55,921 nt of DNA, from NCBI GenBank assembly GCA_017514235.1, contig JAFWKK010000058.1, forward strand, positions 1 to 55,921. Direction: 5' to 3'. Positions 34,378 to 55,921 of the stretch are shown piece by piece. This stretch comes from Kiritimatiellia bacterium (GTDB taxonomy: Bacteria; Verrucomicrobiota; Kiritimatiellia; RFP12; UBA1067). Positions within the stretch are counted from its first letter, which is position 1; each line of letters begins with the position of its first letter. The notes under the pieces were generated by a model, which saw only the letters and a list, made by a program, of their open reading frames with translations, made no database searches and had not been told where the DNA came from. Position numbers and translations under genes: made by a program.

Positions 34378-34453
34378 GGGAAGGAACCGTGCGCGACGTG
34401 AAACATGCGGCCTTGCCGTTGCTTTTCGCCGCGCGTTCCGCCCGCCTCTTAAG

Positions 34454-34482: not shown

Positions 34483-34512
34483 GTTGCGGATTGTTGAGCC
34501 AGGAGAATCACG

Positions 34513-35828: not shown

Positions 35829-37165
35829 CAAGTCCGACAAAAAAGTCCCTCCGCTTCTGGCAGTGGGAGACGCTGCTCGTGACAATGGGCGGCTACGCCC
35901 TATACTACATCATCCGCAAGAACCTGTCGCTTGCGATGCCGCTTCTCGGCGGCGAGTTCGGCATCTCCAAGGTTCAGCTCGGAACCTTTCTCACGTTCCA
36001 CGGCGTCATCTACGGCCTTGCGCGCTTCACCAACGGCATCCTGACGGACCGCAACAGCGCGCGGAAGGTGATGTCCGCCGGTCTCTTCATCTGCGCGTGC
36101 GTGAACCTCGCGTTCGGATGCAGCGACTGGATCGCACGGGGCGTCTCGTCCGCGGCTGGCGGCGCCGCAGCGTTCACGACGACGCTTGTGTGGGTGATGG
36201 GGATCATCTGGGTGATCCATGGCTATTTCCAGGGCATGGGCGTGGGACCGTGCGTGAAGACGCTGCCGCAGTGGTTCCCGCCCAACCAGCTCGCCACGAA
36301 GCAGGCCATCTGGAACCTTTCGCACTCGGTCGGCGCGGGCGGCGTGTTCGCGCTTCTCGGCTGGTGGATAATTCCCGCATATCATTCCTGGCGGCTCTGC
36401 TTCCTCGTGCCTGCCGGCATCTCCATGGCCGGCAGCGTGTTCCTCTGGCTGGCGATGAAGGATTCTCCCAAGGACGTGGGCCTGCCGGAAATCCCCGGGC
36501 GCAAGGTGACCGTCGTCAAGACGAAGGAAGAGAGCGCGGCCTACAAGGCGTTCGTGCGCGACCACGTGCTCAAGAACCCGTACATCTGGATTCTTGCGGT
36601 CTCCAACTTCTTCGTGAACACCGTTCGCTTCGCCGCGCTCGACTGGGGCCCGACGCTGCTGGTGGAGTCGAAGGGCCTGACCCTCGCGGCGGCGACCACG
36701 CTCTGCTTCACGTTCGAGATCATAGGCGGCAACCTCGGCATGGTGGCGGCAGGCTGGGCGAGCGACCACGTGTTCGGCAGCCGTACGCATCGCACGTGCG
36801 TGTTCTGCTTCCTCGGCGTCGCCGCGGCAGTGTCGCTGTTCTGGGCTGTGCCCGTGTCGGCGCCGCTCGTCGTGAAGCTGGTCCCGTTTGCGATGATCGG
36901 CTTCTTCGTGTACGGACCGCAGGCGCTCCTTGGCATCGCCTCCACGCAGCAGGCCACCCCGCGCGCTGCTGCTGCTGCGGGCGGCATCCTCGGCATCCTC
37001 GGCTATCTCTCCACGGTCGTAAGCGGCATAGGCTTCGGCTGGATGGCGCAGACATGGGGCTGGAACGCCGCGTACGCGACGATTCTTGCGTGCGCCGTGC
37101 TGGGCGGCCTCGTGGTGCTGATGATGTGGAAGGCGCCGGCGGAGCAGACGGGAACGGAGGCATAG
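35825..37165 (+). CDS. organophosphate:phosphate antiporter (GlpT/UhpC-like MFS)
   Basis: A 446-residue MFS protein with 12 membrane segments. The start WETLLVTMGGYALYYIIRKN and the RFTNGILTDR loop between helices 2 and 3 are typical of the OPA family (GlpT, UhpT, UhpC, PgtP), which exchange sugar or glycerol phosphates for phosphate across the inner membrane. GlpT-type phosphate-binding arginines would sit in YIIRK and in a later helix. An AGGAGA site precedes the ATG, which overlaps the HAD stop by four bases. The AraD gene starts 2 bases after its stop. Substrate probably a phosphorylated sugar or polyol. Confidence 0.85.
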   Translation: MTSPTKKSLRFWQWETLLVTMGGYALYYIIRKNLSLAMPLLGGEFGISKVQLGTFLTFHGVIYGLARFTNGILTDRNSARKVMSAGLFICACVNLAFGCSDWIARGVSSAAGGAAAFTTTLVWVMGIIWVIHGYFQGMGVGPCVKTLPQWFPPNQLATKQAIWNLSHSVGAGGVFALLGWWIIPAYHSWRLCFLVPAGISMAGSVFLWLAMKDSPKDVGLPEIPGRKVTVVKTKEESAAYKAFVRDHVLKNPYIWILAVSNFFVNTVRFAALDWGPTLLVESKGLTLAAATTLCFTFEIIGGNLGMVAAGWASDHVFGSRTHRTCVFCFLGVAAAVSLFWAVPVSAPLVVKLVPFAMIGFFVYGPQALLGIASTQQATPRAAAAAGGILGILGYLSTVVSGIGFGWMAQTWGWNAAYATILACAVLGGLVVLMMWKAPAEQTGTEA

Positions 37166-37167
37166 CC

Positions 37168-37860
37168 ATGCTTGAAGAGCTGAAAGAGCGGGTCTGTGAG
37201 GCCAACCTAGCGCTTGTGCGCCATGGCCTCGTTGTGCTGACTTGGGGCAACGCCTCCGCAATCGACCGCGAACGCGGACGGATCGTCATCAAGCCGAGCG
37301 GCGTCGCCTACGATGCGATGAAGCCGGCGGACATGGTGGTGGTGGATCTCGAAGGCGCGGTCGTGGAAGGGCCCGGGCGGCCTTCAAGCGACACGCCAAC
37401 GCACCTCGCGCTCTACAAGGCGTTCCCGGGCGTCGGCGGCGTGGTGCACACTCATTCCACGCATGCGACGGCCTGGGCGCAGGCCGCCCGGCCGGTTCCG
37501 ATCCTTGGCACCACCCATGCGGACGTCTTCCATACCGATGTGCCGGTGACGGATGAAATGCCCGACGACCGCATCCGCGACGCCTACGAGGCGGCGACGG
37601 GGGAATCGATCATTGCGGCGTTCCGCCGCCTGGGCGTCGATCCGAACGAGACGCCTGCCGCGCTTGCCGTCCACCACGGGCCGTTCGCGTGGGGGGCGAC
37701 GGTCGAGAAGGCCGTGGAACATGCGGTAACGCTTGAAGCCGTCGCGGAGATGGCCGCGCATACGCTGGCGCTCAACCCCGGTTCGCGGATGAATCCCGCC
37801 ATGACCGAGAAGCACTATTCGCGCAAGCACGGTTCAGGCGCATACTACGGTCAGCCGTAA
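37168..37860 (+). CDS. araD: L-ribulose-5-phosphate 4-epimerase-like class II aldolase
   Basis: A 230-residue cytoplasmic class II aldolase/epimerase. It shows WGNASAID, KPSGVAYDAM, SSDTPTHLALY, the zinc ligands in HTHS (expected H95/H97 equivalents) and HHGPFAWG. The arrangement and length match AraD, which links L-arabinose catabolism to the pentose phosphate pathway; related UlaF/SgaE enzymes use L-xylulose-5-phosphate instead, and the family also includes fuculose aldolases. It ends the operon with the HAD phosphatase and antiporter. ACGGAGG precedes the ATG. Confidence 0.87.
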   Translation: MLEELKERVCEANLALVRHGLVVLTWGNASAIDRERGRIVIKPSGVAYDAMKPADMVVVDLEGAVVEGPGRPSSDTPTHLALYKAFPGVGGVVHTHSTHATAWAQAARPVPILGTTHADVFHTDVPVTDEMPDDRIRDAYEAATGESIIAAFRRLGVDPNETPAALAVHHGPFAWGATVEKAVEHAVTLEAVAEMAAHTLALNPGSRMNPAMTEKHYSRKHGSGAYYGQP

Positions 37861-42014: not shown

Positions 42015-43160
42015 TCAAACGGTTTGTCGCCAGCTGCCGGGAGTGATGCCTGTCTCGCGGCGAAAGACATTTGCCAGATACGCGGCGTTGCAGAACCCTG
42101 CCTGCCTGGCGATTTCCGTGAGCGGAGCGTCTGTGTTGCGGAGAAGCAGTTTCGCTTGGACGAGCCGCTGCCGCATGATCTCCCGCCCTACTGAGATCTT
42201 GAGCTCCTTCGCGAACAGCCGGTCAAGCCGAAGACGGGAAATGCCGATGCCGTCCGCAATCTGCGGCGAACCGATCGGCTCGGAGATATGGGCGGCGATG
42301 AAGGCCATTGCCGCCCGGAGCGTGGGGTCGCTGACCGCGACGGTGTCGGTTGACCGGCGCAGTGTGATTCCCTGCGGCGCGATGAGGATTGGGCTTCTCG
42401 GAGCCGCGCCACCTTCCATCAGCCTGTCGAGAAGCGCCGCGCCCGCATAGCCAATCCGTTCCATGTTGTGGTTGACCGATGATATCGGCACAATCTGGTT
42501 CTCGCAGATGATCGGGTTGTTGTCCACGCCAAGTACGGCAACCTCGCCCGGCACGTCCAGCCCGCGTTCGCGGCAAATGGCGATTACGCGGCTTGCATCG
42601 TAGTCGGAGTAGGCGAACACGCCGAGCGGCTTTGGCGCCGCATTGATGCTTTCGCCGAGCCAGCGTGAGAGTTCAGACCACCCCATGCGAGTCTTGCCCG
42701 GGGCGTGTTCCGACCATACGAGGCGCAGCGGCCCGGCTGCGCCTGGAACGGCGGAGCGCCACGCCTTGACGAATGCCGCGTAGCGCAGCTGCTGCACGTG
42801 TCCCCAGTTCGAGGAGAACCACGCGCTGCTTGTGAAGCGGCGTTCGGCAAAGTGTTCCGCAGCCAGTCTCCCGATCTGCGGATCGTCGCCGCAGACTCTC
42901 GGAACGTGCCTTTCGGAGAATTGTCCCGAAACGTTCACGATGGGAATCTTTGCGGTGCGCAGTTCCTGCACGAATGCGGCGAGCTTTGGCGAATCCTTCA
43001 TCGTGACGATTGCGCCATCGCCACGCCAGCCGAGTGGCGGACGCGAGAACTCGCTTTCGAGCATGAGCGTCCATCCGCGCTCTCGTGCAAGTCGGGCGAT
43101 GCCGTTGAGCCTTGTTTGCTGTGCCGGCGAAATGAGGACAAGTACGCACTTCGCTTTCAT
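42015..43160 (-). CDS. XylR-like regulator of the amino-sugar/sialic acid operon
   Basis: A 381-residue protein. Residues about 1-270 form a LacI/periplasmic-binding-type effector domain (KCVLVLISPAQQTRLNGIAR, VAVLGVDNNPIICEN, ISSVNHNMERIGYAGAALL). The linker ITLRRSTD leads to an AraC-type HTH domain (about 285-378) ending GFCNAAYLANVFRRETGITPGSWR. It is divergent from the symporter-nagA-nagB operon across 97 bases, so it most likely responds to a sugar from that pathway. Its TATAAT lies 8 bases before the ATG, indicating a leaderless mRNA. Confidence 0.9.
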   Translation of the reverse strand: MKAKCVLVLISPAQQTRLNGIARLARERGWTLMLESEFSRPPLGWRGDGAIVTMKDSPKLAAFVQELRTAKIPIVNVSGQFSERHVPRVCGDDPQIGRLAAEHFAERRFTSSAWFSSNWGHVQQLRYAAFVKAWRSAVPGAAGPLRLVWSEHAPGKTRMGWSELSRWLGESINAAPKPLGVFAYSDYDASRVIAICRERGLDVPGEVAVLGVDNNPIICENQIVPISSVNHNMERIGYAGAALLDRLMEGGAAPRSPILIAPQGITLRRSTDTVAVSDPTLRAAMAFIAAHISEPIGSPQIADGIGISRLRLDRLFAKELKISVGREIMRQRLVQAKLLLRNTDAPLTEIARQAGFCNAAYLANVFRRETGITPGSWRQTV

Positions 43161-43257: not shown

Positions 43258-44763
43258 ATGACAGGGAGCATTTCAATCATCGACTATGCAGTTGTCGCGG
43301 TCTTCTTCGTCGCGATGGTCGGCGTTGGTGTGCATTATGCTCGCCGTGCCACGACATCGGATCAGTTTTTCGGTGGTGACAAGGTGGTGCCGTGGTGGCT
43401 TTCCGGCATCTCGTTCTACATGAACAGCTTTTCGGCGCTCGCGTTCGTCATGTACTCCGCTCTTGCGTACAAGTACGGATGGGTCCCCGTGACGGTGAGC
43501 TGGCTGTCCGTCCCTGCGGTTCTGCTGGGAGCGTGGTTCCTTGCCGTCCGATGGCGGCGCGCGGCGAAGGGGAGCCCCATTGACTACATCGCCGAACGCT
43601 ACACGCCGGGAATGTGCCGGACGCTTGCGGTGCTGGGCTTGCCGATGCAGCTTCTCGACAACGCCCTCAAGCTGCTTGCGATCGGAACGGTTGTGGGGGT
43701 GGGGATGGGCTTTCCGCTCTTCTGGGCGATCGGCATTTCAGGGGTGATCATCGTCCTCTACACGTTTCTCGGCGGGCTCAAGGCGACGCTTGCCTGCGAC
43801 TTCATCCAGTTCTTCGTGATCCTCGCCGTCGTTCTTGCGCTTCCGTTTCTCTGCCTCTCCCGTCTTGCCGCACTTGACGGTGGCGCCGGCCTTGCGCACG
43901 GCTTTTCCGTCTTCTTGGACGGTGTGCCTTCCGGCTTCTTCAATTTTACCGCCGGGCGATACACGTGGGTGTACATGCTCGTGTTCTTCTGCTGCGTAGG
44001 CTCCACGCTTTCGACGAACTGGTCGCTTGTGCAGCGCTACTACGCCACGCGGAGCGACCGCGACGCGCGGAAGATGGCGTACCTTGTCGCCGCGCTCCTG
44101 TTTGCCGGCCCGCCGATCTTCTTCTTCCCCGCGATGGCTGCGCGCGTGTTCCTGCCCGGTCTGCCTGATGCGGAGATGAATGGCGTCTATGCGCATCTCT
44201 GTCGGGAGGTGCTGCCCGTAGGCATGATGGGAATGGTCGTTGCCGCAATGTTCTCGGCTACGATGAGTTCCCTGGCCGGGAACTTCAACGCCGCTGCCTC
44301 GGTCGTGGTGAACGAGCTCTATCTCAAGTTCGTCCCTGCGTCCTCCTCGCGCTCAAAGATGATCGCTGCCCGCATGGCCACGGTCCTTGTCGGCGGACTC
44401 GTCCTTGCGCTCACCTTCGTGATGCAGTATGTGCAGGGCGCAGATGACCTCTTCAACCTCTCGAACAAAGTCTTTGGGGTGTTTCTGCCGCCAATTGCCG
44501 TTCCGATGCTTGGCGGCCTTCTCATCCGTCGCCTTTCGCGGCGAGCCGGCATGGCTGGGCTTGTCGGTGGAATCGCCTTCGGGCTCGCGCTTTTTTCTGT
44601 CGGGGCGAGATGGCCGTTCCTGCGGGAAATGGTCTGGTCGTTCCCGCTTACGGCGGCGGCGACGGTTGTCTGCCTCATTGTCGGTACAGCGCTTTGGCCG
44701 GATGCGGCAGAGGAGCGCAAGGCGGTTGACGGGTTCTTTGCGAGGTTGGAGGGAGCGGCATGA
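43258..44763 (+). CDS. sodium:solute symporter (SSF family)
   Basis: A 501-residue inner-membrane transporter with about 13 membrane segments. It has the SSF signature regions: SISFYMNSFSALAF-like helix 1, TFLGGLKATLACDFIQFF and FSATMSSLAGNFNAAASVV, the latter holding sodium-site serines. SSF members import sugars, including sialic acid, galactose and myo-inositol. As the first gene of an operon with nagA, nagB, an acetylneuraminate-lyase homologue and a sialidase, sialic acid or an N-acetylhexosamine is the likely cargo. The start is the ATG at 43258 directly behind the -10; a TTG ten codons earlier lies in the promoter. Its stop overlaps the nagA start (ATGA). Confidence 0.88.
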   Translation: MTGSISIIDYAVVAVFFVAMVGVGVHYARRATTSDQFFGGDKVVPWWLSGISFYMNSFSALAFVMYSALAYKYGWVPVTVSWLSVPAVLLGAWFLAVRWRRAAKGSPIDYIAERYTPGMCRTLAVLGLPMQLLDNALKLLAIGTVVGVGMGFPLFWAIGISGVIIVLYTFLGGLKATLACDFIQFFVILAVVLALPFLCLSRLAALDGGAGLAHGFSVFLDGVPSGFFNFTAGRYTWVYMLVFFCCVGSTLSTNWSLVQRYYATRSDRDARKMAYLVAALLFAGPPIFFFPAMAARVFLPGLPDAEMNGVYAHLCREVLPVGMMGMVVAAMFSATMSSLAGNFNAAASVVVNELYLKFVPASSSRSKMIAARMATVLVGGLVLALTFVMQYVQGADDLFNLSNKVFGVFLPPIAVPMLGGLLIRRLSRRAGMAGLVGGIAFGLALFSVGARWPFLREMVWSFPLTAAATVVCLIVGTALWPDAAEERKAVDGFFARLEGAA

Positions 44764-45680
44764 CGGCGGACGGTTGGGTGGATCTCCAGATAAACGGCTA
44801 TGCGGGCGTTGACTTCAACGCGCCCGGGCTGACAGTAGAGGCGGTTAAGGCCGTGACCGAACGGCTTGCGGCGGACGGGACGGCGGCGTTTATGCCGACA
44901 CTCGTGACCGGCGATCCCGAAATGCTCGTCGGGACGATTCGCACCATCATGGCAGCGCGGAAGCGCCATGCCGAATGCGAACGCGCAATACTCGGATTCT
45001 TCCTTGAAGGACCGTTCATCTCGCCGGAGCCCGGCGCGGTGGGAACGCATCCCGTGGAATGGGTGCGACTGCCGGACCTTGCACTCTTTGAACGGTTTCA
45101 GGATGCGGCGGGAGGTCTCGTCAAGATGGTCAACGTGGCGGCGGAGGTTCAGGGCGCGCCCGATTTTGTCCGCGCCGTCTCAGCGCAGGGCGTTGTCGTT
45201 TCGCTCGGGCACCAGATGGCGACAAGTCCGACCCAGCTCGAACCATGCCTTGCCGCCGGCGCGAAGGCGTTTACGCATCTTGGCAACGGAATCCCAAACA
45301 GTATTGACCGGCACGACAACATTATCTTTACGGCACTCGTTGAGGATCGTGCGTCCGTCATGTTCATCCCCGACGGGCACCATCTGCCGGACACGATGCT
45401 GAAGCTCTACTGCCGTGCCGTTCCGCTCAAGCGGCTTATCGCCGTTTCGGATGCGCAGTATCCCGCCGGAATGCCGCCGGGAGAGTACGAGGTCTGCGGG
45501 GCTCACGCGCGCCTTGAAGAGGATGGACTGCTCTGGAACCCGGCGCGGGGATGCCTTGTCGGCGCGACGTCGCCGATAGCGAAGATGATGCGGCTTCTCG
45601 CCGAACGTATGGGGCTTGCGCCGGAAGAGCTGCGCGCCATTGGGCGCGACAATGCATTGAATCTCATCGGGATGAATTAA
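44760..45680 (+). CDS. nagA: N-acetylglucosamine-6-phosphate deacetylase
   Basis: A 306-residue amidohydrolase-superfamily enzyme that deacetylates GlcNAc-6-P in the cytoplasm. Seen: DLQINGYAGVDFN, metal ligand E83 in FLEGPF, H151 in SLGHQM, H173 in FTHLGN and catalytic D231 in VSDAQYPAG. It is about 75 residues shorter than E. coli NagA because most of the N-terminal beta-sandwich is missing; the THLFNAM motif of the family is changed to THLGNGIPN. The start overlaps the symporter stop by four bases. Substrate specificity could deviate given these differences. Confidence 0.88.
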   Translation: MTADGWVDLQINGYAGVDFNAPGLTVEAVKAVTERLAADGTAAFMPTLVTGDPEMLVGTIRTIMAARKRHAECERAILGFFLEGPFISPEPGAVGTHPVEWVRLPDLALFERFQDAAGGLVKMVNVAAEVQGAPDFVRAVSAQGVVVSLGHQMATSPTQLEPCLAAGAKAFTHLGNGIPNSIDRHDNIIFTALVEDRASVMFIPDGHHLPDTMLKLYCRAVPLKRLIAVSDAQYPAGMPPGEYEVCGAHARLEEDGLLWNPARGCLVGATSPIAKMMRLLAERMGLAPEELRAIGRDNALNLIGMN

Positions 45681-45701
45681 AAGCAGTCAAGGAGAACTGA
45701 A

Positions 45702-46457
45702 ATGGGCATGAAAGTCTATGTCGGCAAAGACAAGCTGGATATGGCGGCGGCTGCGGCAAAAGCCGCCGCCGACAAGGTGTGCGAGGCAATCGCGCTCCGT
45801 GGAGAGGCCCGGATTATCGTGGCGACTGGCGCGAGCCAGTTCGAGTTTCTCGCCGCATTCGTGAAGGAGCCGGGCATCGACTGGACGAAGGTGACGGGCT
45901 TCCACCTTGATGAATATGTTGGTCTGCCGGTGTCGCACAAGGCTTCGTTCCGGGGCTATATGCGCGAGCGCTTTGTGTCGCAGACGCCGCAGCCGATGAA
46001 GGCGTTCAACGAAGTGAACGGCGAAGCCGCCGATCCGGAAGCCGAAATTGACCGGCTTGAACGGCTCATCCGCGTTGCGCCAATCGATGTCGCCTGCGTC
46101 GGCATCGGCGAGAACGGCCATCTCGCGTTCAACGACCCGCCGGCGGACATCGACTGCGCACGGGCCTACAAGGTTGTGCCGCTTGACGACAAGTGCCGCA
46201 TGCAGCAGGTCGGCGAGGGTTGGTTCTCGTCGAAGGACGACGTGCCGACGCATGCCTTCTCCATGACCATGAAGCAGATACTTTGGTCTCGCGCAATTGT
46301 CTGCACGTGTCCGGACGCCCGTAAGGCAGAGGCGGTGAAGGGGGCGATTGACGGGCCCGTGACGAACATGCTGCCGTCGTCGTTCCTTCAGCTCCACCTC
46401 GACTGTGGAATGTTTCTCGACCCGGACAGTGCATCATTGCTCAAGAAAGAACTGTAA
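45702..46457 (+). CDS. nagB: glucosamine-6-phosphate deaminase
   Basis: A 251-residue enzyme converting glucosamine-6-P to fructose-6-P and ammonia. Diagnostic segments are VATGASQFEFL, GFHLDEYVGL (catalytic aspartate), GIGENGHLAFNDPP (catalytic Glu-His pair) and a C-terminal HAFSMTMKQIL. Length matches the non-allosteric short form. AAGGAGA lies ahead of the ATG, 21 bases after nagA. Its TAA overlaps by one base an in-frame ATG of the next gene. Confidence 0.95.
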   Translation: MGMKVYVGKDKLDMAAAAAKAAADKVCEAIALRGEARIIVATGASQFEFLAAFVKEPGIDWTKVTGFHLDEYVGLPVSHKASFRGYMRERFVSQTPQPMKAFNEVNGEAADPEAEIDRLERLIRVAPIDVACVGIGENGHLAFNDPPADIDCARAYKVVPLDDKCRMQQVGEGWFSSKDDVPTHAFSMTMKQILWSRAIVCTCPDARKAEAVKGAIDGPVTNMLPSSFLQLHLDCGMFLDPDSASLLKKEL

Positions 46458-46471
46458 TGGAGAATACAAAA

Positions 46472-49400
46472 ATGAAGACTAAAACTATCAGTGCGCCGCA
46501 TGCGGAACGTCCGCAAGTGTGGCATAGCGAGAGGTGCGGGAGCAAGTTACTTACTCTGCTTCTGGCTTCAGCAATCGGTTGCGTGGCGTTTGCGACCACC
46601 TACACATGGACCGGCGGAGCCGGTGATGGCCTCTGGACTTCGTCAGGAAACTGGGGACTTTCTTCCGGATATCCCAACGCCGCCGATGCGGAGGTGACGT
46701 TTTCCGGAAACGCCACCGTCTCCTTAAACACAGGTGCGCAGACGGACATCGCCTACATCAACGTGACGGCGGGCAATATCGTAATCACGGCGTCATCAGG
46801 CTCGTTGCTCAAGATCAACTGGCTCGGCAAGGGCAATCCGGCCGACAAACCAAAGTGGGGCATCACCGTTGCCGATGGCGCCTCGCTTGACCTCGCCGTG
46901 CCGCTGGCGACGATTGCCGATCGCTTCGACAGGTATGGCACGGGCAAGCTGACCATCCGTGATATCGCCATCACAAAGACGGGTACAGCCAACTGGTATG
47001 TCTACAACGGCACGAACAGCTTTGAAGGTTCGGCATCTGTGACGTTCCCCAGCAAATCTGATGTTGTCTTCGGCGTGGGTGCTCCCCATGACAAATCATT
47101 TGTTTTCATCAAGGACAATGCTCAGTTTTCTGTCGAGAACTTCAATCTGACTTCTGGAGGAGACATTGTGCCAAACACGCAGGTAATACAGGACGGTGCT
47201 GAAACCGTGGTATCGGCGACGACAAAGCTACGCCTCGACTGTAACAGTGCCAACGATGCCCATTGCTACACGCTGAAGAGGGGTGCCATTTCGGCGAGTG
47301 AACTGACCGTTGCGCCAAGTTATTTAAGTCAAAGTGCAGGCGGTGGTCTCTATACAAGTCCTGACTACGCGCCGGAGCATCTCCACTACATTCAGGAGGG
47401 AGGCACTTCCACATTCGCCAAGGTTACATTGACCCGAGGTTCGGCGGCATTGCGTGGAGGCGTGATGAACTATACAGGCGCGGATGCGGACTTCAAGTTC
47501 GGTGCTGGCACGAAATTTGAGCTGTCAGGTGGTACGCTTGTGTGGCCAAGAGAATTCCAGCCTGCAAATTTTCCAAGAATTAAATGGTCGGGGACGAACA
47601 GTGTGATCGTGCCGTCTGGGAAGTCGTTCACATGGAACTGGAAGAGTGTCGATGTTGATCCTGGTGCCGTGTTCAAACATGACGGCAGTGGAACGCTGAC
47701 GTTCGATTTTGAGAGATACACTTCAGGCGTTGGGCTTGATGTCGCTGCCGGAAAGACGGTCTCGGTTGCTGAAGGTGCTACCGTGCTGGCCATGCCTGGC
47801 GTAACGGATCCTTGGAAAGTGACGCTCAACGAAGGGGCGGAGTTCCGCCTTGCCGGTGCCACTTCTCGTTTGAACGTGCCTCTTGATCTGACGGTCAATG
47901 GTTCCGGAAAGATTGTGTACAACAGTTTCCGCGGCGCCGTGGTTGCCCACAAACTGACGGTGGATGGCGTTGAGAAAGCCAAGGGAATCTATGCCGCGAA
48001 CGGGTCGAATTCATTTGTCGGCAACACGTCAGCCAATGCATCGGTGTTGGAGGCCTCGTTGATTCTCGTTCCGTATGTCTGGACCGGCAATGGCGGCGAC
48101 AACCGCTGGGACAACGCCGCGAACTGGGATGCCCTTGCAGTGCCGCCATCGTCCGATGCAACGGTAGTGGATGTTTCGCGCGCCAAGACGATCATCTTGA
48201 ACGATTCCATCAAGCTCGCCTGTCTTGTCGCGATGCCCAACGGAATGGATCGCAGGGTTGAAATAACCGGTACAGGATCCATCGCGCTCTGGTCGCCTGT
48301 GTCGTATGGGTGCGGAGTACTTGTGCCAGAGGGATGCGAACTTGCGCTGCATGTCGGTCTAACACGCGATACTTCGTCCAGTCATGCTGGCACGATAGGG
48401 CTTTATGGTGGTGGCAAGCTTTCGTTGAGTACGCTGGCCCCTCTCGTAACTGCCGGCGGTACCACGCCGACTTTTGCAATAGACGGAATCGTTGCAGTGA
48501 CAAATGCCAGCTATAGCAACAGTTCTAATGGTAGGATGCCCTGCTGGTCGTATGAGGGGGGCAATGGTCGCTATGAGATTGGGGATGATGTAACATTGAC
48601 GTTGCAGTACATCATATTCGGTCCGGGCGGTTATGCAATGCCGAACGAATTACACCAGACAGGTGGAAGCGTAACGGTATCGGCGGCGTACATAGGCACC
48701 CATAACAACACGGTTCGTCCTGCCCCTGTCTATTATCTCGAAGGCGGCGAATTTACTGGAGCCGTTTATCTCAACAAGCTGTATTCCTCAAGCTGGAGCC
48801 GCTATCCCGGTGGAAGTTTTGAGATGAGTGGTGGTACGATGAACGGATCATTCACCGGTTACCGCAACCAGAACTATGTTAGGCTGTATGGAGGAACTGT
48901 GAATCTCAAGGCCGACTGCGCGGCTACGATAGATACAGGTGCAACGGTCAAGAAGCAGGATACCAATGAATACACCTTCTATCTTGGCGGTGTGACCATT
49001 CGCCCCAAAGACGCGGAGCGCTCGATTAGCAGTGGCAACGTTTGGCTAACCGGCAAGAACGGTGACTGCAAAATAGACGTCTCCGAGCGGAACTTCAACT
49101 TCGCAAGCGGCAACACTGTCGCCGGACCAGGCGGCTTTGTCGTGGAAGGAACTCAGACCGTCAAGTCTTCTGCCGCGTTTACATTTACGGGCGCGATTAC
49201 CATCAAGAGCGGCAACTTGACGTGTTACGCGGCTTCGTCCATCAACGGGCCAAGCGCACTCGTCGTGGAGAATGTCGGTTCCGTCGCCACATTCGGGAAC
49301 GGCGGTACATTTGAACGCGTTGTGCTTGCGCAGGCTTCGAACCTCGCCGTCAGCAGCGGCAAGACCATCACGACGGAACGGCTTGTTGTTGGAGGGGTGG

Positions 49401-50809
49401 ATGTTGCGGTGGGCTCCTACACCGGCACGTATGGAGATGGTACGGTTGTTGTGACTGGCTCTGCGCCATCATCTTGGGTTGTGGATGGCGCGGGGGACCT
49501 CTCGTGGTTCGCCGACGGCACGGCAACGACGGTAGATGCGGCGACGACGCTTTCCTCGCTCACATATGCCCCTGTCACGGTCGGCGAGACGAACGCGCTC
49601 GCAGGCGCGGCGTTGACGTTTGAGGATGGTGCGAACATCCACGTCGAGAAGGGCGATACGCTCGTCATCGGCAATAATGTCGTGTTTGCAGGAAAGGTGA
49701 CGAAGACAGGCTGGGGCGAGGTTGTGTTCAACGGTGGCGTCACGTGCAGCGGCACGCCGGCGGAGAACAACGACACGGGCTGGCTCACCGTCACGGAGGG
49801 CAGTGCGACGTTCGACGGTGCGGTAACGGGTGTAAGACTGATGACGTGCGGTGCACAAGATGCTTTGGGCGTTCCCGTGATCACGCTGAAGGAGAACTGC
49901 ACCGTCAGCAACTATGCGATCGTTCTCACGGCGTGGAGCGAGGGGAACGTCATCGCCAACGTGACGGGCGAGACGCATCAGCAGGGTGCGACAGTTGATT
50001 ATTCAGACGGCGTGTTCTCGAGTCTCATAAATTCCAGCATGTATCCGATGACGAAGCCGAATGGCGGCGTAGGTCGGTATGTGCTTAACTCTGGAACGCT
50101 TCGTATGTGCTCGTTGAGTACACGCCTAACGTCGTTCTTCCAGATATGGAACGATGCGGGTACATTTGAGCTGGTGCAGAACGGCGGAACCCTTGTCTTG
50201 CCGCAGGGGGTCTACATGGTGCGCAACAATAAGGAAGTGACAAGAGGCATCTACACGCTCAATGGCGGGCGCGTGGAGTTAGGATTGTCGTTTTCAAGCT
50301 ATTCAAGGATGTTTGGAACTGTCAATCTTAATGGCGGTACGGTGATGATCAGCTATACCGGAGCCGCTTTCTGTCCGCGTGAGAATGTTGCTTTGACGGT
50401 GGACGGTACGGTGACGTTCGAGACGCCCGCCGGCACGTCTGCTATCATTGCGAACGATGGCGTGGGCACGGTTTCGTTCGTCAAGACGGATGCGGGCAGC
50501 CTCAAGCTGGACGGTGTGTTCGATATGGACAGCCTCGATGTGCAGGGGGGCACGGTGACGCTGACCGACAGGACGCTGCCGTTGTTGGACGGCGCGACCG
50601 ACCTCTCCATTGCGAGGACGGCGACGCTCGATCTTGACTATGACGGACAGGGGACATTCAAGACGTTGAAGGTGGGCGACCGCAACCGTGCGGCGGGCAT
50701 CTATTCGACGTCGCAAGGCCCCACTGCTGTAAAGAATGTGCTTGACGGCGACGGCGAGCTGCGTATCCTTGAGGGTAATGACCCAGGCTTCGTCATAATG
50801 GTATTTTGA
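46472..50809 (+). CDS. giant surface protein with autotransporter-type beta-strand repeats
   Basis: About 1445 residues, start taken at 46472 because GGAGA lies 8 bases upstream; an ATG at 46457 overlapping the nagB stop is also in frame. The signal region is unusually long (charged N-part, then LLTLLLASAIGCVAFA). The body has several TYTWTGGAGDGLW/VWTGNGGDNRWDNAANWD modules (from about 45, about 530 and about 1010) followed by beta-helix stretches with GGT, LDVAAGKTVSV and FEMSGGTM units, as in autotransporter-associated passenger domains. No translocator barrel follows; the end is DPGFVIMVF. It sits inside the amino-sugar operon, so it may bind mucin-like glycans. Confidence 0.75.
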   Translation: MKTKTISAPHAERPQVWHSERCGSKLLTLLLASAIGCVAFATTYTWTGGAGDGLWTSSGNWGLSSGYPNAADAEVTFSGNATVSLNTGAQTDIAYINVTAGNIVITASSGSLLKINWLGKGNPADKPKWGITVADGASLDLAVPLATIADRFDRYGTGKLTIRDIAITKTGTANWYVYNGTNSFEGSASVTFPSKSDVVFGVGAPHDKSFVFIKDNAQFSVENFNLTSGGDIVPNTQVIQDGAETVVSATTKLRLDCNSANDAHCYTLKRGAISASELTVAPSYLSQSAGGGLYTSPDYAPEHLHYIQEGGTSTFAKVTLTRGSAALRGGVMNYTGADADFKFGAGTKFELSGGTLVWPREFQPANFPRIKWSGTNSVIVPSGKSFTWNWKSVDVDPGAVFKHDGSGTLTFDFERYTSGVGLDVAAGKTVSVAEGATVLAMPGVTDPWKVTLNEGAEFRLAGATSRLNVPLDLTVNGSGKIVYNSFRGAVVAHKLTVDGVEKAKGIYAANGSNSFVGNTSANASVLEASLILVPYVWTGNGGDNRWDNAANWDALAVPPSSDATVVDVSRAKTIILNDSIKLACLVAMPNGMDRRVEITGTGSIALWSPVSYGCGVLVPEGCELALHVGLTRDTSSSHAGTIGLYGGGKLSLSTLAPLVTAGGTTPTFAIDGIVAVTNASYSNSSNGRMPCWSYEGGNGRYEIGDDVTLTLQYIIFGPGGYAMPNELHQTGGSVTVSAAYIGTHNNTVRPAPVYYLEGGEFTGAVYLNKLYSSSWSRYPGGSFEMSGGTMNGSFTGYRNQNYVRLYGGTVNLKADCAATIDTGATVKKQDTNEYTFYLGGVTIRPKDAERSISSGNVWLTGKNGDCKIDVSERNFNFASGNTVAGPGGFVVEGTQTVKSSAAFTFTGAITIKSGNLTCYAASSINGPSALVVENVGSVATFGNGGTFERVVLAQASNLAVSSGKTITTERLVVGGVDVAVGSYTGTYGDGTVVVTGSAPSSWVVDGAGDLSWFADGTATTVDAATTLSSLTYAPVTVGETNALAGAALTFEDGANIHVEKGDTLVIGNNVVFAGKVTKTGWGEVVFNGGVTCSGTPAENNDTGWLTVTEGSATFDGAVTGVRLMTCGAQDALGVPVITLKENCTVSNYAIVLTAWSEGNVIANVTGETHQQGATVDYSDGVFSSLINSSMYPMTKPNGGVGRYVLNSGTLRMCSLSTRLTSFFQIWNDAGTFELVQNGGTLVLPQGVYMVRNNKEVTRGIYTLNGGRVELGLSFSSYSRMFGTVNLNGGTVMISYTGAAFCPRENVALTVDGTVTFETPAGTSAIIANDGVGTVSFVKTDAGSLKLDGVFDMDSLDVQGGTVTLTDRTLPLLDGATDLSIARTATLDLDYDGQGTFKTLKVGDRNRAAGIYSTSQGPTAVKNVLDGDGELRILEGNDPGFVIMVF

Positions 50810-50836
50810 TTGATAATACAGGAGAATGATTGAGCG

Positions 50837-51877
50837 ATGAACACGAGAAGGGGGGTTTTGAAGGCTATGGCGGCGTCAGCCGCTGCGGGTGGCGTCACGC
50901 GCATCCAGGCTGCAGTGCCGAGACAGGCAAGTCCGGGGCTGCGCGTTCCTGATGGTGTGCGCTTTGCCGGTATGGCGGGAGCCTATTCGGCGATGTTCAC
51001 GCCGTTCTTCCGTCAGGGCGAGAAGGAGGGCCAGCTGAACGAGGAGGCGATCGAACGCCTCGTCGAGTATGCGGTGAAGACTGGGCTTACAGGGCTGTAC
51101 CTCACGGGTTCGACGGGCGAGGGCTTTCTGCTGTCCCTTGACGAGCGCAAGCGCGTCTACAGCCGGGTCTTCAAGGCGGCGAGGGGTCGCCTGAAGCTCA
51201 TCGCGCACGTCGGCTGCCTCAATACCGACGATGCGTGCGAACTTGCGCGCTATGCGGCCGATGTCGGCATCGACTGGGTCTCATCCGTCGCGCCAGTTTA
51301 CTTTGGGCAGACCTTCGATGCGGCTCTGGATCACTACAAGACCATATCCGAGGCGACGGACCTGCCGTTTATGGTGTATTCGGTTGTTGGCAAGCTTGTG
51401 CCGGATCAGGCCGCGAGGTTCTTCGACCTGAAGAACGTGTATGGCATGAAGTATACTGGCCACGACTACTACGACCTTGGCGCCTTGCTGCGCAAACTGA
51501 GCAAGCCGGCCATTTTCTTCGCCGGAGCCGACCAGCAGGTCCTGAACGGCTTTGCAACGGGCGAATTCGCAGGATGCATCGGTTCCAACGACAACCATCA
51601 CCCGCGCCAGTTCGTGAAAATATGCGAGCTTGCCGCGCAGGGCAGGTTCATAGAGGCGCGCCCCTACCACAACGAAGTCTGTCGCTATATTGACATTCGC
51701 AACGCCCATGGCAACATCATGTCGCTCCACAAGAACGTAATGAGGTATATTGGCATCGACTGCGGCAATCCGCGTCGGCCGGCTGGTCGACCGCTCACTC
51801 AGGCGGAATATGATGCATTTATGGCGGAGGTCGAGGCGCTCGGCACTATCCGCAGGAACGACGCAAACCTCATTTGA
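50837..51877 (+). CDS. Tat-exported N-acetylneuraminate lyase-family aldolase (DHDPS/NanA family)
   Basis: A 346-residue protein. The first 25 residues are a Tat signal (MNTRRGVLKAMAASAAAGGV, then TRIQA), which normal cytoplasmic NanA or DapA lack. The barrel carries the family hallmarks: GSTGEGFLL (91-99), Y181 in PFMVYS, Schiff-base lysine K205 in YGMKYTG, and GADQQVLNGFATGEFAGCIG, closest to sialic-acid aldolases. Known family activity is reversible cleavage of Neu5Ac to N-acetylmannosamine and pyruvate. Export would put this step outside the cytoplasm. AGGAGA lies upstream; the esterase gene follows 15 bases later. The reaction here is inferred; a different 2-keto acid is possible. Confidence 0.8.
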   Translation: MNTRRGVLKAMAASAAAGGVTRIQAAVPRQASPGLRVPDGVRFAGMAGAYSAMFTPFFRQGEKEGQLNEEAIERLVEYAVKTGLTGLYLTGSTGEGFLLSLDERKRVYSRVFKAARGRLKLIAHVGCLNTDDACELARYAADVGIDWVSSVAPVYFGQTFDAALDHYKTISEATDLPFMVYSVVGKLVPDQAARFFDLKNVYGMKYTGHDYYDLGALLRKLSKPAIFFAGADQQVLNGFATGEFAGCIGSNDNHHPRQFVKICELAAQGRFIEARPYHNEVCRYIDIRNAHGNIMSLHKNVMRYIGIDCGNPRRPAGRPLTQAEYDAFMAEVEALGTIRRNDANLI

Positions 51878-51892
51878 CGGGTAAATGATGCG

Positions 51893-52627
51893 ATGGAAGA
51901 CATTGTGAAATCGATGTTGTTGGCGATGGTTGTGGCCGTCAGTGTATCGGCGGCCGGAGTTTCCGGCACCCACGGTCGGGACGGCTCAGAAAAGTTCAGG
52001 GTGGCCTGCATTGGCGATTCGATTACCTACGGGAAGGGCATGACAAACCGCGTTGAGGAATGCTACCCCGCCAGGCTCCAGCAGCTTCTCGGCGACCGGT
52101 ACGAGGTGCGCAACTTTGGCGACTCCGGCGCCGGCGTTTATCTGCACACGAAGCGTGGCGACAAGCCGCGCGCCTGGCGTCTTCGCGGCGAATACGAACC
52201 TGCGCGAGCGTTTCGGCCCGACATCATCGTCTGCAACCTGGGCATCAACGATGCAAGCACTTACATGGACGAGTATGTCCATGGCGAGGACGGTAAGCCG
52301 AAGCTCGAGCGCGGACTCTTCCGCAGGCAGTATGCGGACATGCTTGAGTCGTTCGCCCATGACGGCAAGCGCCCCAGATACATCATCTGGACAAAACTCG
52401 GACCTACCGGCAAGAAACACGCATTAAAAGGCAAGCCGTTCGCTTTCGTGATGGAGCACGATCTCGAGCAGGTCGCGCGCGACGTCGGTGCAGAGACGCT
52501 TGACATGTACACGCCGCTTGTCCCGCTCGTTGAGACATCCCATTTTTGCCCGGACGGCATACACCCTGAGGGTGGAGCGCAGAAGGTCATTGCAGAGATT
52601 ACGGCTGCCAAGATTCTGAAACGCTGA
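51893..52627 (+). CDS. secreted SGNH/GDSL esterase, sialate O-acetylesterase candidate
   Basis: A 244-residue SGNH hydrolase with signal peptide (MLLAMVVAVSVSAAG region; start 51893 or the ATG at 51914). Block I is CIGDSITYG with the nucleophile serine, block II has the oxyanion glycine in NFGDSGAG, block III is LGINDAS, and block V DGIHPEGG gives the Asp-His pair. In this operon, removal of O-acetyl groups from sialic acid is the likely role, making the sugar accessible to aldolase and sialidase; other carbohydrate esters are possible. It sits 15 bases after the aldolase gene. Confidence 0.82.
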   Translation: MEDIVKSMLLAMVVAVSVSAAGVSGTHGRDGSEKFRVACIGDSITYGKGMTNRVEECYPARLQQLLGDRYEVRNFGDSGAGVYLHTKRGDKPRAWRLRGEYEPARAFRPDIIVCNLGINDASTYMDEYVHGEDGKPKLERGLFRRQYADMLESFAHDGKRPRYIIWTKLGPTGKKHALKGKPFAFVMEHDLEQVARDVGAETLDMYTPLVPLVETSHFCPDGIHPEGGAQKVIAEITAAKILKR

Positions 52628-52672
52628 ACACGGCAAAGAACCATAAAACAGAGACAAGGAGAAAGGTTGACT

Positions 52673-54010
52673 ATGGATAGGCGAGGATTCATAAAGACAG
52701 GCGCAGGTGCATTTTTCATCGCCTCCGCTGGCAGCGCATTTGGCGCGATGGCACCTTCGAACAGGGTGAGGTTGGCGATTGTAGGCTGCCATGCGAATGG
52801 GCGTGGTTTTACGGTCATGAAGGGGGCGATGAAGGTTCCGGGCGTCGAGATCGCCTGCGTGTGCGATGTCGATAGACGGGCACGCGAGTCCGCCGCGGAT
52901 TACGTCTTCAAAGCGACCGGTGTGAAGCCCAAGATGGAGAAGGATCTCCGAATCGTCCTTGAGGACAGGGAGATCGACGGCATCATCTCGGAGACGCCAG
53001 ATCACTTCCATGCCTATTCGGCGGTTATGGCGATGCGGGCAGGGAAGGCCGTTTACGTCGAGAAGCCCTGCTGCTTCTGCCCGGAGGAGGGCCGGATTCT
53101 GATGCGCGTGGCCAGGGAGACGGGTGCCGTGATCCAAATCGGCAGCCAGCGCCGCTCTTCGCCAACGTACAAGTCCGCGGTCGAATATCTAAAGGAGACG
53201 GACATAATTGGCGAGATGCGCTGGGCGAAGGCTTGGTATATGTCGAACCGTAAGTCAATTGGAAAGGGGAAGCCGTCGGCCGTCCCAGAGTGGTTGGACT
53301 GGGACATTTGGCAGGCCACGGCACCGCGCGAACAGTTCCGCGACAACATCGTCCACTACAACTGGCATTGGTTCCGCAAGTGGGGGACATCCGAAATGGG
53401 CAACAACGCCCCGCATTTCGTGGATGTCTCGCGCTGGGCTCTCGGCATCGACAGTTTTCCGGAGTCCGTGACGAGTTCCGGCGGGAAGCTGTTCGACAAG
53501 GGCGGCGACTTTGAGTGGCCTGACACCTTCAACACGTCCTTCGTTTACCCGGGCGGCAGGCTGATCACGTTCGAGCTGACATGTCACTGTAACGAGAAGC
53601 CGTTCATGGGAGTCGCCACTGGCGCGATGGTCTACGGCACGAAAGGTGCCGCTTTCTTCGGCCCTTCTGATGACGTCAAGGTTTTCGACGAGGATTCGAA
53701 GTTGATCCGGGAATGGTCGGCTGCCGCCTCCTCCGCCGGCTCGAACACGCCAATCTCCACAACCAATCCGACGGCCGGCCTTGATGTACTTCACCTGACG
53801 AACTTCGTCGAGTGCTTGCGGGCGAAGGTCTCCCGTACAAACACGGATGCCGAACAGGGCGTTAAGTCGTCCGTTCTGCCGCTCCTCGCCAACATCGCGA
53901 CGGACGTTGGCGAAACGCTGCACCTCGATCCAGTGACGGGCGCGTCGACATCTAGAGTCGGTGCAGACAAATGGGCACGCGAATACGAAAAGGGCTGGGA
54001 ACTTGCCTGA
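52673..54010 (+). CDS. Tat-exported Gfo/Idh/MocA family protein
   Basis: A 445-residue oxidoreductase-fold protein. The Tat signal reads MDRRGFIKTGAGAFFIASAG. The Rossmann domain shows RLAIVGCHANGRG and CVCDVD; the catalytic-site motif is YVEKPCCFCPEE with the EKP lysine. The C-terminal domain has GNNAPHFVDVSRWALG. AAGGAGAAAGG precedes the ATG at 52673, better than the TTG at 52667. Exported Gfo/Idh proteins include NAD-dependent GH109 alpha-N-acetylgalactosaminidases, while cytoplasmic relatives interconvert 2,7-anhydro-sialic acid and sialic acid. Either would suit a mucin/sialic acid locus; the sequence alone does not decide. Confidence 0.82.
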   Translation: MDRRGFIKTGAGAFFIASAGSAFGAMAPSNRVRLAIVGCHANGRGFTVMKGAMKVPGVEIACVCDVDRRARESAADYVFKATGVKPKMEKDLRIVLEDREIDGIISETPDHFHAYSAVMAMRAGKAVYVEKPCCFCPEEGRILMRVARETGAVIQIGSQRRSSPTYKSAVEYLKETDIIGEMRWAKAWYMSNRKSIGKGKPSAVPEWLDWDIWQATAPREQFRDNIVHYNWHWFRKWGTSEMGNNAPHFVDVSRWALGIDSFPESVTSSGGKLFDKGGDFEWPDTFNTSFVYPGGRLITFELTCHCNEKPFMGVATGAMVYGTKGAAFFGPSDDVKVFDEDSKLIREWSAAASSAGSNTPISTTNPTAGLDVLHLTNFVECLRAKVSRTNTDAEQGVKSSVLPLLANIATDVGETLHLDPVTGASTSRVGADKWAREYEKGWELA

Positions 54011-54052
54011 ACGCGAAGTTTTTGCAGACAATAAGCAAAGAGGAGAAAAACT

Positions 54053-55051
54053 ATGAAATTGTTCTTGATGGTGGTGTGTGCATGTCTTGCGTCTGTCGGC
54101 TTTGGTGAGACACGGGTCGGTATCATTGGACTCGACACGAGCCATGCGGTTGCGTTCACGAAGATCATGAACGTCGACAAGGATCCGGGCGTGGCGGGCT
54201 TCCGCGTGACGTCGGCCTACCAATGGGGTTCAAAGGACATCTTCTCATCAACGAATCGCTATCCAAAATATCTGGCGGAGGTTCGCAGCATGGGCGTCGA
54301 GATTGTTTTGACTCTGGACGAGCTGTTGGCTAAGGTCGATGTCGTCTGCCTTGAGACAAACGACGGCCGTGAGCATCTCCAGCAGGCGGAGAAGGTGTTC
54401 AAGGCCGGAAAGCCCGTATTCATCGACAAGCCTATCGCCCATAACTTGGCCGATGCGCTTAAGATCTACGAACTCGGCAAGAAATACGGGGCAAAGTACT
54501 TCTCCGCCTCGTCGTTGCGTTTCTCCCGCGTCGCACTGGACGCCCGCGCGGGGAAGTACGGTCCGATCCGGGGCGCGGATATCATCTCTCCGGCCCCATA
54601 CGAGCCTACGCACAACTTCTACTCCTGGTACGGCATCCACGGGTTCGAGCCGTTGGTGGCGATTATGGGCCTTGGGGTCGAGAAGGTGGCCTGCCTGCGC
54701 AACGATAGGGGCGACGTCGTCACGGCTGTCTGGAAAGACGGGCGCATGGGGCAGATTAGGATGCTGCGCGAAAGCTGCAGCTGCTATTCTGGCTATCTCC
54801 TTCCGGAGAAGCCTAAGGACATGAAGAACCCCCTCGTCGTCTACGACGGGTATCCTGGTTTTGAACCTCTTCTGCGCGAAGTCACGAAGTTTTTCAAGAC
54901 GGGCGTTGCGCCGTTCCCGCCGGAGGAGACGCTGGAGATCTTTGCGTTCATGGAAGCGGCCGAGATGTCCGCCCGTCGCGGCGGCGAGCCGGTCATGCTA
55001 TCGGAAGCAGTCGAAGCCTGCGGCGAAAAGCCGTTCGGGAAGTTCTGGTAG
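54053..55051 (+). CDS. secreted short Gfo/Idh-like protein
   Basis: A 332-residue protein with Sec signal peptide (MKLFLMVVCACLASVGFG). The N-terminal Rossmann-like part has VGIIGLDTSHAVAF instead of the usual GxGxxG glycine pattern, and FIDKPIAHN stands for the EKP motif. The C-terminal alpha/beta domain is present (YSWYGIHGFEPLVAIMG). The changed dinucleotide loop suggests altered or lost cofactor binding. It follows the Tat Gfo/Idh gene by 42 bases and precedes the sialidase by 105. Probably acts with its paralogue on the same released sugar; the reaction is unknown. Confidence 0.75.
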   Translation: MKLFLMVVCACLASVGFGETRVGIIGLDTSHAVAFTKIMNVDKDPGVAGFRVTSAYQWGSKDIFSSTNRYPKYLAEVRSMGVEIVLTLDELLAKVDVVCLETNDGREHLQQAEKVFKAGKPVFIDKPIAHNLADALKIYELGKKYGAKYFSASSLRFSRVALDARAGKYGPIRGADIISPAPYEPTHNFYSWYGIHGFEPLVAIMGLGVEKVACLRNDRGDVVTAVWKDGRMGQIRMLRESCSCYSGYLLPEKPKDMKNPLVVYDGYPGFEPLLREVTKFFKTGVAPFPPEETLEIFAFMEAAEMSARRGGEPVMLSEAVEACGEKPFGKFW

Positions 55052-55156
55052 CACAAGGATAGGGTCGCTGCGCGCGTGATGTAGGTCCGGTTGAGCGGAT
55101 GTATGGGTTCCGCTGAAAATAATCTGTCAAAAGGAACTAATGAAAGGAGTCCAGCC

Positions 55157-55921
55157 ATGAGAAAGAGCCTGTTTTCCCTCCTGTCCGCGGCGGCGCTGTC
55201 CGTCATTGCCGATCCGGCTCCGGGCGTGAAGGTTGCGCTGGAACTGACGCCGGGGCCGGACAATCCGCGCAACAGCGAGGGGGCGTTCCTGCCGCTCAAG
55301 GACGGACGCATCCTGTTCGCCTATTCGCGGTACTACGGCACCTCCAGCTCCGACCATGCGACGGCGGACATTGCCGCGCGCCATTCGTCCGACAAGGGTG
55401 CGACCTGGACGGACAAGGACGTGATCATCGTCAGGAACCATGGTGGCATGAACGTGATGAGCGTGAGCCTCCTGCGTCTCCACAGCGGTGAGATCGCGCT
55501 CTTCTACCTGCTCAAGAACAGCACCAGGGACTGCCGCCTCGTGCTGCGCCGCTCGTTCGACGAGGGCAAGACATGGTCGGAACCGACGCTCTGCATCACC
55601 GATGAAGTGGGGTACTTTGTCGTGAACAACGACCGGGTGATCCAGCTGAAGGACGGACGGCTCCTTTTTCCCGTTTCCCAGCACCGGTTCGACGGCGACG
55701 TGTTCGACAACAAGGGAGTGGTGATGACGTATGCGAGCGACGACAACGGCAAGACGTGGTGGCGCGGAAAGTCCGAGTTGCGCATCGTCTCGCCGAGCGG
55801 ACGGAAGTATTCCGCGCAGGAGCCGGGCGTGGTGGAGTTGAAGGACGGGCGCATTCTCCTCTGGATCCGCACGAATGCCGGTTGCCAGTTCATGAGCTGG
55901 TCGAACGATCGGGGCGAGACC
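55157..55921 (+). CDS. secreted exo-sialidase-like protein (5' part, cut by window end)
   Basis: At least 255 codons, open to the end of the window. It has a signal peptide (MRKSLFSLLSAAALSVIA) and three Asp-box motifs of the six-bladed sialidase propeller: SSDKGATW (77-84), SFDEGKTW (133-140) and SDDNGKTW (194-201). NSEGAFLPLKDGRILFAYSR near residue 45 resembles the start of bacterial exo-alpha-sialidases; the catalytic arginine triad and tyrosine cannot be fully checked because the 3' end is missing. AAAGGAGT precedes the ATG. It would release terminal sialic acid for the rest of the operon. Other Asp-box glycosidases remain possible. Confidence 0.82.
   Translation, partial: MRKSLFSLLSAAALSVIADPAPGVKVALELTPGPDNPRNSEGAFLPLKDGRILFAYSRYYGTSSSDHATADIAARHSSDKGATWTDKDVIIVRNHGGMNVMSVSLLRLHSGEIALFYLLKNSTRDCRLVLRRSFDEGKTWSEPTLCITDEVGYFVVNNDRVIQLKDGRLLFPVSQHRFDGDVFDNKGVVMTYASDDNGKTWWRGKSELRIVSPSGRKYSAQEPGVVELKDGRILLWIRTNAGCQFMSWSNDRGET

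Follow-up and report, generated by a model that had tools for sequence, protein, structure and literature searches.

A conserved branch of NanA-family aldolases with predicted Tat signals is most probably part of an extracytoplasmic sialate module

Where is sialic acid split? Sialate catabolism as described takes up the intact acid and cleaves it in the cytoplasm, and a gene run in a Kiritimatiellia bacterium raises the question of whether this order is general. The run lies at the end of a stretch of 55,921 nucleotides (the window), which is one whole contig (JAFWKK010000058.1; G000:C53) of a 3.96-Mb draft genome (GCA_017514235.1). From position 43258 it reads, all on one strand, an SSF symporter, NagA, NagB, a repeat protein of 1450 residues, a NanA-type aldolase, an SGNH hydrolase, two Gfo/Idh proteins, and a sialidase (Table 1); because the window is the whole contig, the sialidase gene is cut by the contig end. 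An original prediction, made from the DNA alone, proposed that sialic acid is de-acetylated, modified, and split here outside the cytoplasm, and that the amino sugar is then imported. Sequence comparison indicates that a conserved, twin-arginine translocation (Tat)-signalled branch of the NanA family is real, and this branch is most probably part of an extracytoplasmic module.

Read by eye, the N-terminus of the aldolase, MNTRRGVLKAMAASAAAGG, is a clear Tat signal, as had been predicted. The export signals foreseen for the neighboring genes were likewise recognizable by eye: the first Gfo/Idh protein starts with a Tat signal (MDRRGFIKTGAGAFFIASAGSAFGA), the second with a general secretory (Sec) signal (MKLFLMVVCACLASVGFG), and the SGNH hydrolase, the esterase of the prediction, with a hydrophobic, Sec-like N-terminus. 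The sialidase that follows the aldolase run also bears out its predicted secretion, beginning with the Sec signal MRKSLFSLLSAAALSVIA. Export signals were judged throughout by eye and by motif and charge rules. For the aldolase, an RRxFL-like motif, an uncharged hydrophobic stretch, conservation among orthologues, and a genomic TatC, encoded in the window's genome, were all found.

To place this signal in its family we used a pool of 95 stretches (75, a further 19 relatives' stretches, and the window), collected by a search seeded with the aldolase family. Ten repeats (L045 to L052, L054, and L055) and three stretches in which the aldolase was not called (L056, L057, and L132) were dropped, leaving 82 loci, among which near-copies such as L061 and L065 remain. 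The Tat rule was an RR or RK motif followed by at least 11 uncharged residues. N-termini shortened by the gene caller (L114, L118, and L119) were mended by stop-to-stop reading; on such a reading the motif of L122 proved false, and that candidate was rejected. The rule picked out 28 of the 82 aldolases; among 860 other called genes it picked out 41 when the choice of start was equally free, and 38 when only the called start was read. Reading by eye added two more loci, L124 with no ATG start and L125 with a hydrophobic run under the rule length, for a total of 30 of 82. Both of the closest relatives, L058 (77%; from a goat-ileum member of the Kiritimatiellae) and L059 (74%), carry Tat signals. 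A locus equal to L058 in N-terminus and identity, L151, belongs to a genome from the same genus as the window.

The signal is clustered by clade. On a tree of 75 rows, from which L043, L053, L067, L125, L126, L130, and L131 were left out, the Tat label changes 3 times, versus 22 when shuffled. Tat rows fall into an all-Tat group of 16 that holds the window (clade 1; support for its deepest branch, 87/56), an all-Tat group of 10 (clade 2), and one single row, and signal-less groups of 28 and 12 rows hold no Tat member. Well-supported branches force two of the label changes; the three could represent a single gain with two losses. We conclude that the Tat signal, as predicted from these N-termini, is a clade trait of the aldolase.

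Profile, structure, and model comparisons indicate that the window aldolase is of the N-acetylneuraminate lyase (NAL) type. Its best NCBIfam models are NanA PRK04147 (197.7 bits; cut-off, 281) and TIGR00683 (157.5; cut-off, 382), neither of which is passed. Among the best 60 of 147 phmmer matches in the PDB, the first 34 are named NAL or acylneuraminate lyase. The predicted model has a pLDDT of 88.2, mostly below 50 over residues 1 to 30; the best 50 rows listed by Foldseek are all NAL-family entries, including the L-KDO-aldolase entry 3lcw, and NAL and DapA rows are level in Z by VIA-align. The enzyme keeps the Schiff-base Lys205, Tyr181, Thr207, Gly230, Asp232, and Ser250; we take the corresponding NAL positions to be K165, Y137, S47/T48, and D191/E192, with GxDE as the motif that binds the substrate tail. 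The Schiff-base Lys, the Tyr, the GSTGE loop, and the GxDE motif are thus all present except at the E192 position. Across the 75 aligned rows Tyr181 and Gly230 are kept in every row and Lys, Thr207, and Asp232 in 74 each. The aldolase of L083, in clade 1, is the sole case with Met in the Schiff-base Lys column (VKGMMYTGY), and either it is dead or the sequence is in error.

Sialidase-like genes were sought with three profile hidden Markov models, on the same strand and within 8 kb; an earlier single-linkage count (44 of 82 loci) was discarded, as its cluster had taken in other propeller and repeat proteins. The survey that the original prediction called for, of Tat-signalled NanA genes next to sialidases, gave a sialidase-like gene at 20 of 30 Tat loci versus 14 of 52 others; L130, whose aldolase start lies off its contig, was scored as non-Tat, and the non-Tat hits at L070 (42 bits) and L116 (61 bits) are weak. 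The window's RNSEG-type sialidase stands beside the aldolase at 12 Tat loci, counting the window, and also occurs at L130 and, as the weak hit, at L116; at six of the Tat loci there is an 8-base overlap between it and the aldolase stop, an operon-like arrangement. The reverse pattern was found by phmmer for SSF genes within 8 kb, present at 1 of 30 Tat loci, namely the window, versus 25 of 52 others (Fisher p = 1e-5), and at 1 of 18 versus 15 of 31 loci with at least 3 kb on both sides (p = 0.004). This is what would be expected if the signal-less enzymes split imported acid and the Tat forms split it outside. In the window's own genome a BNR_2 gene is near 4 of the 6 subfamily members (rough binomial p = 4e-5, assuming 10 BNR_2 places, with 13 rows listed). 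An AraC gene was nearby at 19 of 28 Tat versus 11 of 54 other loci, as counted by single-linkage clusters.

GH33 sialidases have a propeller fold, an Arg triad, an Asp, and a Tyr/Glu pair. The fold of an intact relative of the window sialidase (L062) is a sialidase propeller, and its closest folds are sialidases acting on N-acetylneuraminic acid (Neu5Ac). Arg42, Asp70, Glu226, and Arg242 are invariant in 7 of 7 rows, and every one of the 6 complete rows also has Arg313 and Tyr344; these candidate catalytic residues were assigned to GH33 roles by spacing only, and the window copy is without its C-terminal part. A second copy of this gene lies at the end of contig C70 of the same genome (L149). 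Over 730 bases the two are 90% alike, and the last 141 bases (window 55781-55921) are identical; since two contigs end within near-identical sialidase genes, the repeated gene probably broke the assembly.

In Escherichia coli, YhcH supplies NanA with the open form of Neu5Ac, and both proteins are cytoplasmic, according to PMC8141875. Several relatives of the window instead encode this anomerase domain (DUF386) with an export signal. Four loci (L060, L061, L082, and L130) carry Sec-signalled fusions in which DUF386 precedes a sialidase domain, both over the Pfam cut-offs (DUF386 in L060, 2.7e-28), those of L060, L082, and L130 with GH3 domains as well. DUF386 also passes the cut-off in L069, where a separate Sec-signalled gene lies between aldolase and sialidase; in L128, where a Sec-signalled flavin adenine dinucleotide (FAD)-dependent oxidoreductase fused to DUF386 (L128:5332-7902) follows a clade-2 Tat aldolase; in L058 and L113; and in a protein on contig C70 of the window's own genome. 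At the N-terminus of the C70 protein, MNRREFLKDTACAGCLGLLGGC combines a Tat signal with a lipobox. The gene lies 4.5 kb from the second copy of the window sialidase and is one of two DUF386 genes in that genome, the other being on contig C68. Of 31 DUF386 loci inspected, 30 were readable: 24 signal-less, 2 with Tat and lipobox (the C70 protein and a relative in genome G433), and 4 within longer frames (L201 to L203 and L206). In L206 (G431:C23), by eye, a single open frame holds a window-type sialidase C-terminus followed by DUF386, the reverse of the order in L060, L061, and L082. Nothing points more strongly to cleavage outside than the anomerase in exported form next to exported NanA-type enzymes.

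Taken together, these linkages make an extracytoplasmic sialidase-anomerase-aldolase module likely, as judged from sequence. In the scheme that we favor, the aldolase would fold in the cytoplasm and then be exported by Tat. The co-localized secreted sialidase would release a nonulosonic acid, most likely Neu5Ac, outside the inner membrane, and an exported YhcH-type anomerase, in this genome the putative Tat/lipobox protein on another contig, would open the ring. The exported aldolase would then cleave the open form to pyruvate and N-acetylmannosamine (ManNAc), and the amino sugar would be imported, perhaps by the SSF symporter, to enter the NagA-NagB route after epimerization and phosphorylation; NagA and NagB share the gene run with the aldolase. 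The families, the signals with their conservation, and the gene linkage are read directly from the DNA, and the catalysis, the substrate, the location in the living cell, and the import of the product are inferred. We put the probability of the whole scheme, a Tat-exported NAL-family aldolase acting downstream of a secreted sialidase and an exported anomerase with its product imported, at roughly 0.6. Even odds seem right for the wider proposal that gut Kiritimatiellae moved release, ring opening, and aldol cleavage outside as one module, through two or three switches of location, and import ManNAc and pyruvate. Of the pathway as originally predicted, sialate splitting outside the cytoplasm thus stands in part, on the predicted export of the aldolase beside a sialidase, the clade-wide Tat signal, the scarcity of SSF genes, and the exported YhcH domains; its esterase and oxidoreductase steps are unsupported.

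Several observations weigh against the scheme. Pfam found no DUF386 gene in the window, the C68 DUF386 protein (7.9e-38) shows no signal, and two DUF386 proteins at Tat loci, one adjoining the aldolase of L058 and one close to that of L113, are signal-less too, which argues against a strict rule of anomerase export. For L058, the closest relative, no sialidase is encoded in the surrounding sequence (3 kb upstream, 8 kb downstream), and no other Tat aldolase among the related loci has NagA, NagB, or SSF genes alongside. The E192 position, which we take to contact the substrate tail, is Gln233 in the window enzyme; Gln also stands there in 10 of 10 clade-2 Tat rows, in which the Ser47 column holds Gly, and Glu is kept in 16 of 27 Tat rows. 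The genome has, beyond what the original prediction took into account, five further close paralogues of the window aldolase, one of them Tat-signalled, and on contig C51 (L044) a signal-less NanA, an N-acylglucosamine 2-epimerase, and an SSF gene stand in a row, so export would not be needed for growth on sialate. A search of the genome found neither an ROK kinase, the family to which NanK presumably belongs, nor NanE, so the route from ManNAc to N-acetylglucosamine 6-phosphate is incomplete on paper. Finally, the rhamnosidases nearby suit a plant substrate equally.

This last point leads to the main rival, in which the module is exported as proposed, the BNR enzyme frees another ulosonic acid, and the aldolase yields pyruvate and a plain sugar. 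The acid could be 2-keto-3-deoxynononic acid (KDN), or 3-deoxy-D-manno-octulosonic acid (Kdo) or 3-deoxy-D-lyxo-heptulosaric acid (Dha), both constituents of the plant polysaccharide rhamnogalacturonan II. In the window a GH78 rhamnosidase gene directly precedes the regulator, and positions 363-3329 encode a GH127 enzyme; among the relatives, 5 aldolases have genes of a GH106 cluster nearby (Pfam was run on one member), and a GH78-like cluster is represented at 3 loci, including one Tat locus, L128. Together these leave room for a plant acid such as Kdo, as do the altered E192 position and the origin of many relatives in goat, sheep, deer, yak, or horse gut or rumen. The GH106 neighbors, however, are exclusively at non-Tat loci, NagA and NagB share the aldolase's gene run, and the closest folds of the sialidase are those of Neu5Ac enzymes; in PMC8141875 YhcH is assayed on Neu5Ac and KDN, and the main text makes no mention of Kdo. 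We regard a different acid as unlikely, if the most serious of the alternatives. Drift of an exported aldolase from sialate cleavage to another pyruvate-dependent or lyase reaction strikes us as improbable. Six subfamily members occur in this one genome in differing settings, and the Gln at E192, the clade-2 changes, and the Met of L083 could be signs of such drift, yet the core residues are kept almost throughout the 75 rows, and the pairing with sialidase-like genes and DUF386 recurs. It is very improbable that the N-terminus is no working signal and the enzyme an ordinary cytoplasmic NanA. An in-frame Met46 lies just ahead of the barrel, and the extension is missing in related clades; against this, Tat motif and start codon are conserved across clades, with the tree and control counts given above, TatC is present, and the anomerase and sialidase partners appear to be exported.

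The fuller scheme of the original prediction, in which the esterase de-acetylates sialate and the Gfo/Idh proteins oxidize or rearrange it outside before the aldolase acts, is doubtful, a little more so than enzymatic drift. The genes are adjacent, on one strand, and all with export signals, and some clade-2 Tat aldolases have FAD-oxidoreductase genes as neighbors, in one case as a fusion to DUF386. However, the called genes within 8 kb of other clade-1 Tat aldolases include no SGNH or Gfo/Idh relative, a partial Gfo/Idh match of 34% in L062 lying beyond that distance. For the SGNH hydrolase, no relative was found at E 1e-8 among the genes called in related loci and no solved relative at 0.001; its nearest NCBIfam model is the acetylxylan esterase AxeA1 (87 bits; cut-off, 700), and it was rejected as a NanS after Pfam and NCBIfam searches gave no NanS-type match. 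The Tat Gfo/Idh protein matches NCBIfam BT_2158_fam (9.3e-34, under cut-off), and its best solved relatives are 8tdf (1e-20) and 8tdh, with YjhC (6o15) at just 1.7e-4 over query residues 96 to 183; its relatives in related loci are scattered (24 to 34%), one being near the Tat aldolase of L120. The Sec Gfo/Idh protein has a 51% relative near the signal-less aldolase of L097 and three weak solved matches, YjhC not among them. Neither was retained as a NanOx/YjhC-type enzyme, the Tat protein being nearer to glycoside 3-dehydrogenases. With no SGNH relative and scattered Gfo/Idh relatives, a role in a sialate pathway is unsupported, and on gene content the Tat aldolases do not have the esterase or the oxidoreductases as conserved partners.

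Table 1. Features of the gene run and its divergent regulator, in window coordinates, with profile matches from Pfam and NCBIfam searches
Feature	Coordinates	Strand	Evidence
Regulator, LacI-type sugar-binding domain and AraC helix-turn-helix, divergent	42015..43160	-	Peripla_BP_3 4.5e-26, HTH_18 2.7e-17
SSF sodium:solute symporter	43258..44763	+	Pfam SSF 3.5e-33
NagA-type N-acetylglucosamine-6-phosphate deacetylase, short N-terminus	44760..45680	+	TIGR00221
NagB-type glucosamine-6-phosphate deaminase	45702..46457	+	Glucosamine_iso 1.4e-17; TIGR00502 1.9e-35, under cut-off
Repetitive protein, 1450 aa	46457..50809	+	No Pfam or NCBIfam match at E 0.001
NanA-type (N-acetylneuraminate lyase family) aldolase, predicted Tat signal, 346 aa	50837..51877	+	DHDPS 7.2e-56
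Predicted Tat signal peptide of the aldolase: TRRGVLK motif, hydrophobic stretch, ...RIQA	50837..50914	+	End placed by eye
SGNH/GDSL hydrolase, Sec-type	51893..52627	+	Lipase_GDSL_2 1.2e-15
Gfo/Idh/MocA protein 1, predicted Tat signal	52667..54010	+	GFO_IDH_MocA 1.9e-11
Gfo/Idh/MocA protein 2, predicted Sec signal	54053..55051	+	GFO_IDH_MocA 5.1e-11
RNSEG-type sialidase (BNR_2), predicted Sec signal, cut by contig end	55157..55921 (frame from 55091; 55157 the likelier start)	+	BNR_2 2.8e-21

For NagA there is no Pfam match, and its TIGR00221 match (4.4e-48; 164.1 bits, missing the cut-off of 225.65) covers model positions 56 to 347 of 380. The repetitive protein has a 53.6% identical copy over 1445 residues in the same genome, downstream of the signal-less NanA of L044. 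Upstream of the GH78 rhamnosidase, window 33460-37860 holds a run of genes for a Tat-signalled metallophosphatase, an HAD-like protein, a major facilitator superfamily transporter, and a class II aldolase. The aldolase subfamily occurs at E ≤1e-50 in 41 of 115 genomes of the window's family, and the records of named relatives are mostly of Kiritimatiellae, Verrucomicrobia, Lentisphaerae, or uncultured organisms, with three planctomycetes. Other neighbors of the related aldolases recur as well. A 449-residue protein with no Pfam match (L058:5634-6983) is present in 8 loci in total, 7 of them Tat, mostly after the sialidase in an AraC-aldolase-sialidase cassette. A neutral-ceramidase-like protein (a weak match, under the Pfam cut-off) is encoded at L039:8066-9433 and at 9 other non-Tat loci, several of which also have an SSF gene. 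Two small proteins form a conserved pair beside or near the aldolases of L058 (1516-2983), L070, L072, L080, and L113; the second has a CDHCPGW motif and is fused to DUF386 in L058 and L113.

Searches of the open-access literature returned no report of a sialate aldolase or lyase that is secreted, extracellular, or periplasmic, nothing on Kiritimatiellota together with sialidase or Kiritimatiellae with twin-arginine, and nothing joining rhamnogalacturonan, Kdo, GH33, and aldolase; the available portion of PMC7356697 likewise holds nothing on an exported sialate aldolase. If the proposal is true, a conserved exported set of sialidase, anomerase, and aldolase would give sialate catabolism a different order of steps. 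It would also change which sugars are shared with gut neighbors, and one would then expect N-acetylmannosamine and pyruvate to have uptake systems. Given the secreted fusions of YhcH and sialidase, the idea could be tested with three purified proteins.

Among known systems, the periplasmic glycoside 3-dehydrogenases of the BT2158 type resemble the window's Tat Gfo/Idh protein, which differs in falling under the family cut-off and is no conserved partner of Tat aldolases. The window-type sialidase shares with GH33 and GH181 enzymes the propeller and candidate Arg, Asp, Glu, and Tyr residues; it is remote from both in sequence, has NPRNSEG at the first Arg where we take RIP to be usual, and in some relatives is fused to DUF386 and GH3. 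With the bacterial NanA pathway (NanA, YhcH, NanK, NanE, NagA, and NagB) the locus has in common the aldolase fold, the Schiff-base residues, a YhcH-type anomerase, and nearby NagA and NagB, but here aldolase and anomerase bear export signals, and the ROK kinase and NanE were not found in this genome. The NanM protein of E. coli, a periplasmic sialate mutarotase according to PMC8141875, likewise places an anomerase outside the inner membrane; whereas NanM serves uptake of the intact acid, the putative exported anomerase described here belongs to the DUF386/YhcH type and occurs together with an aldolase that is itself predicted to be exported.

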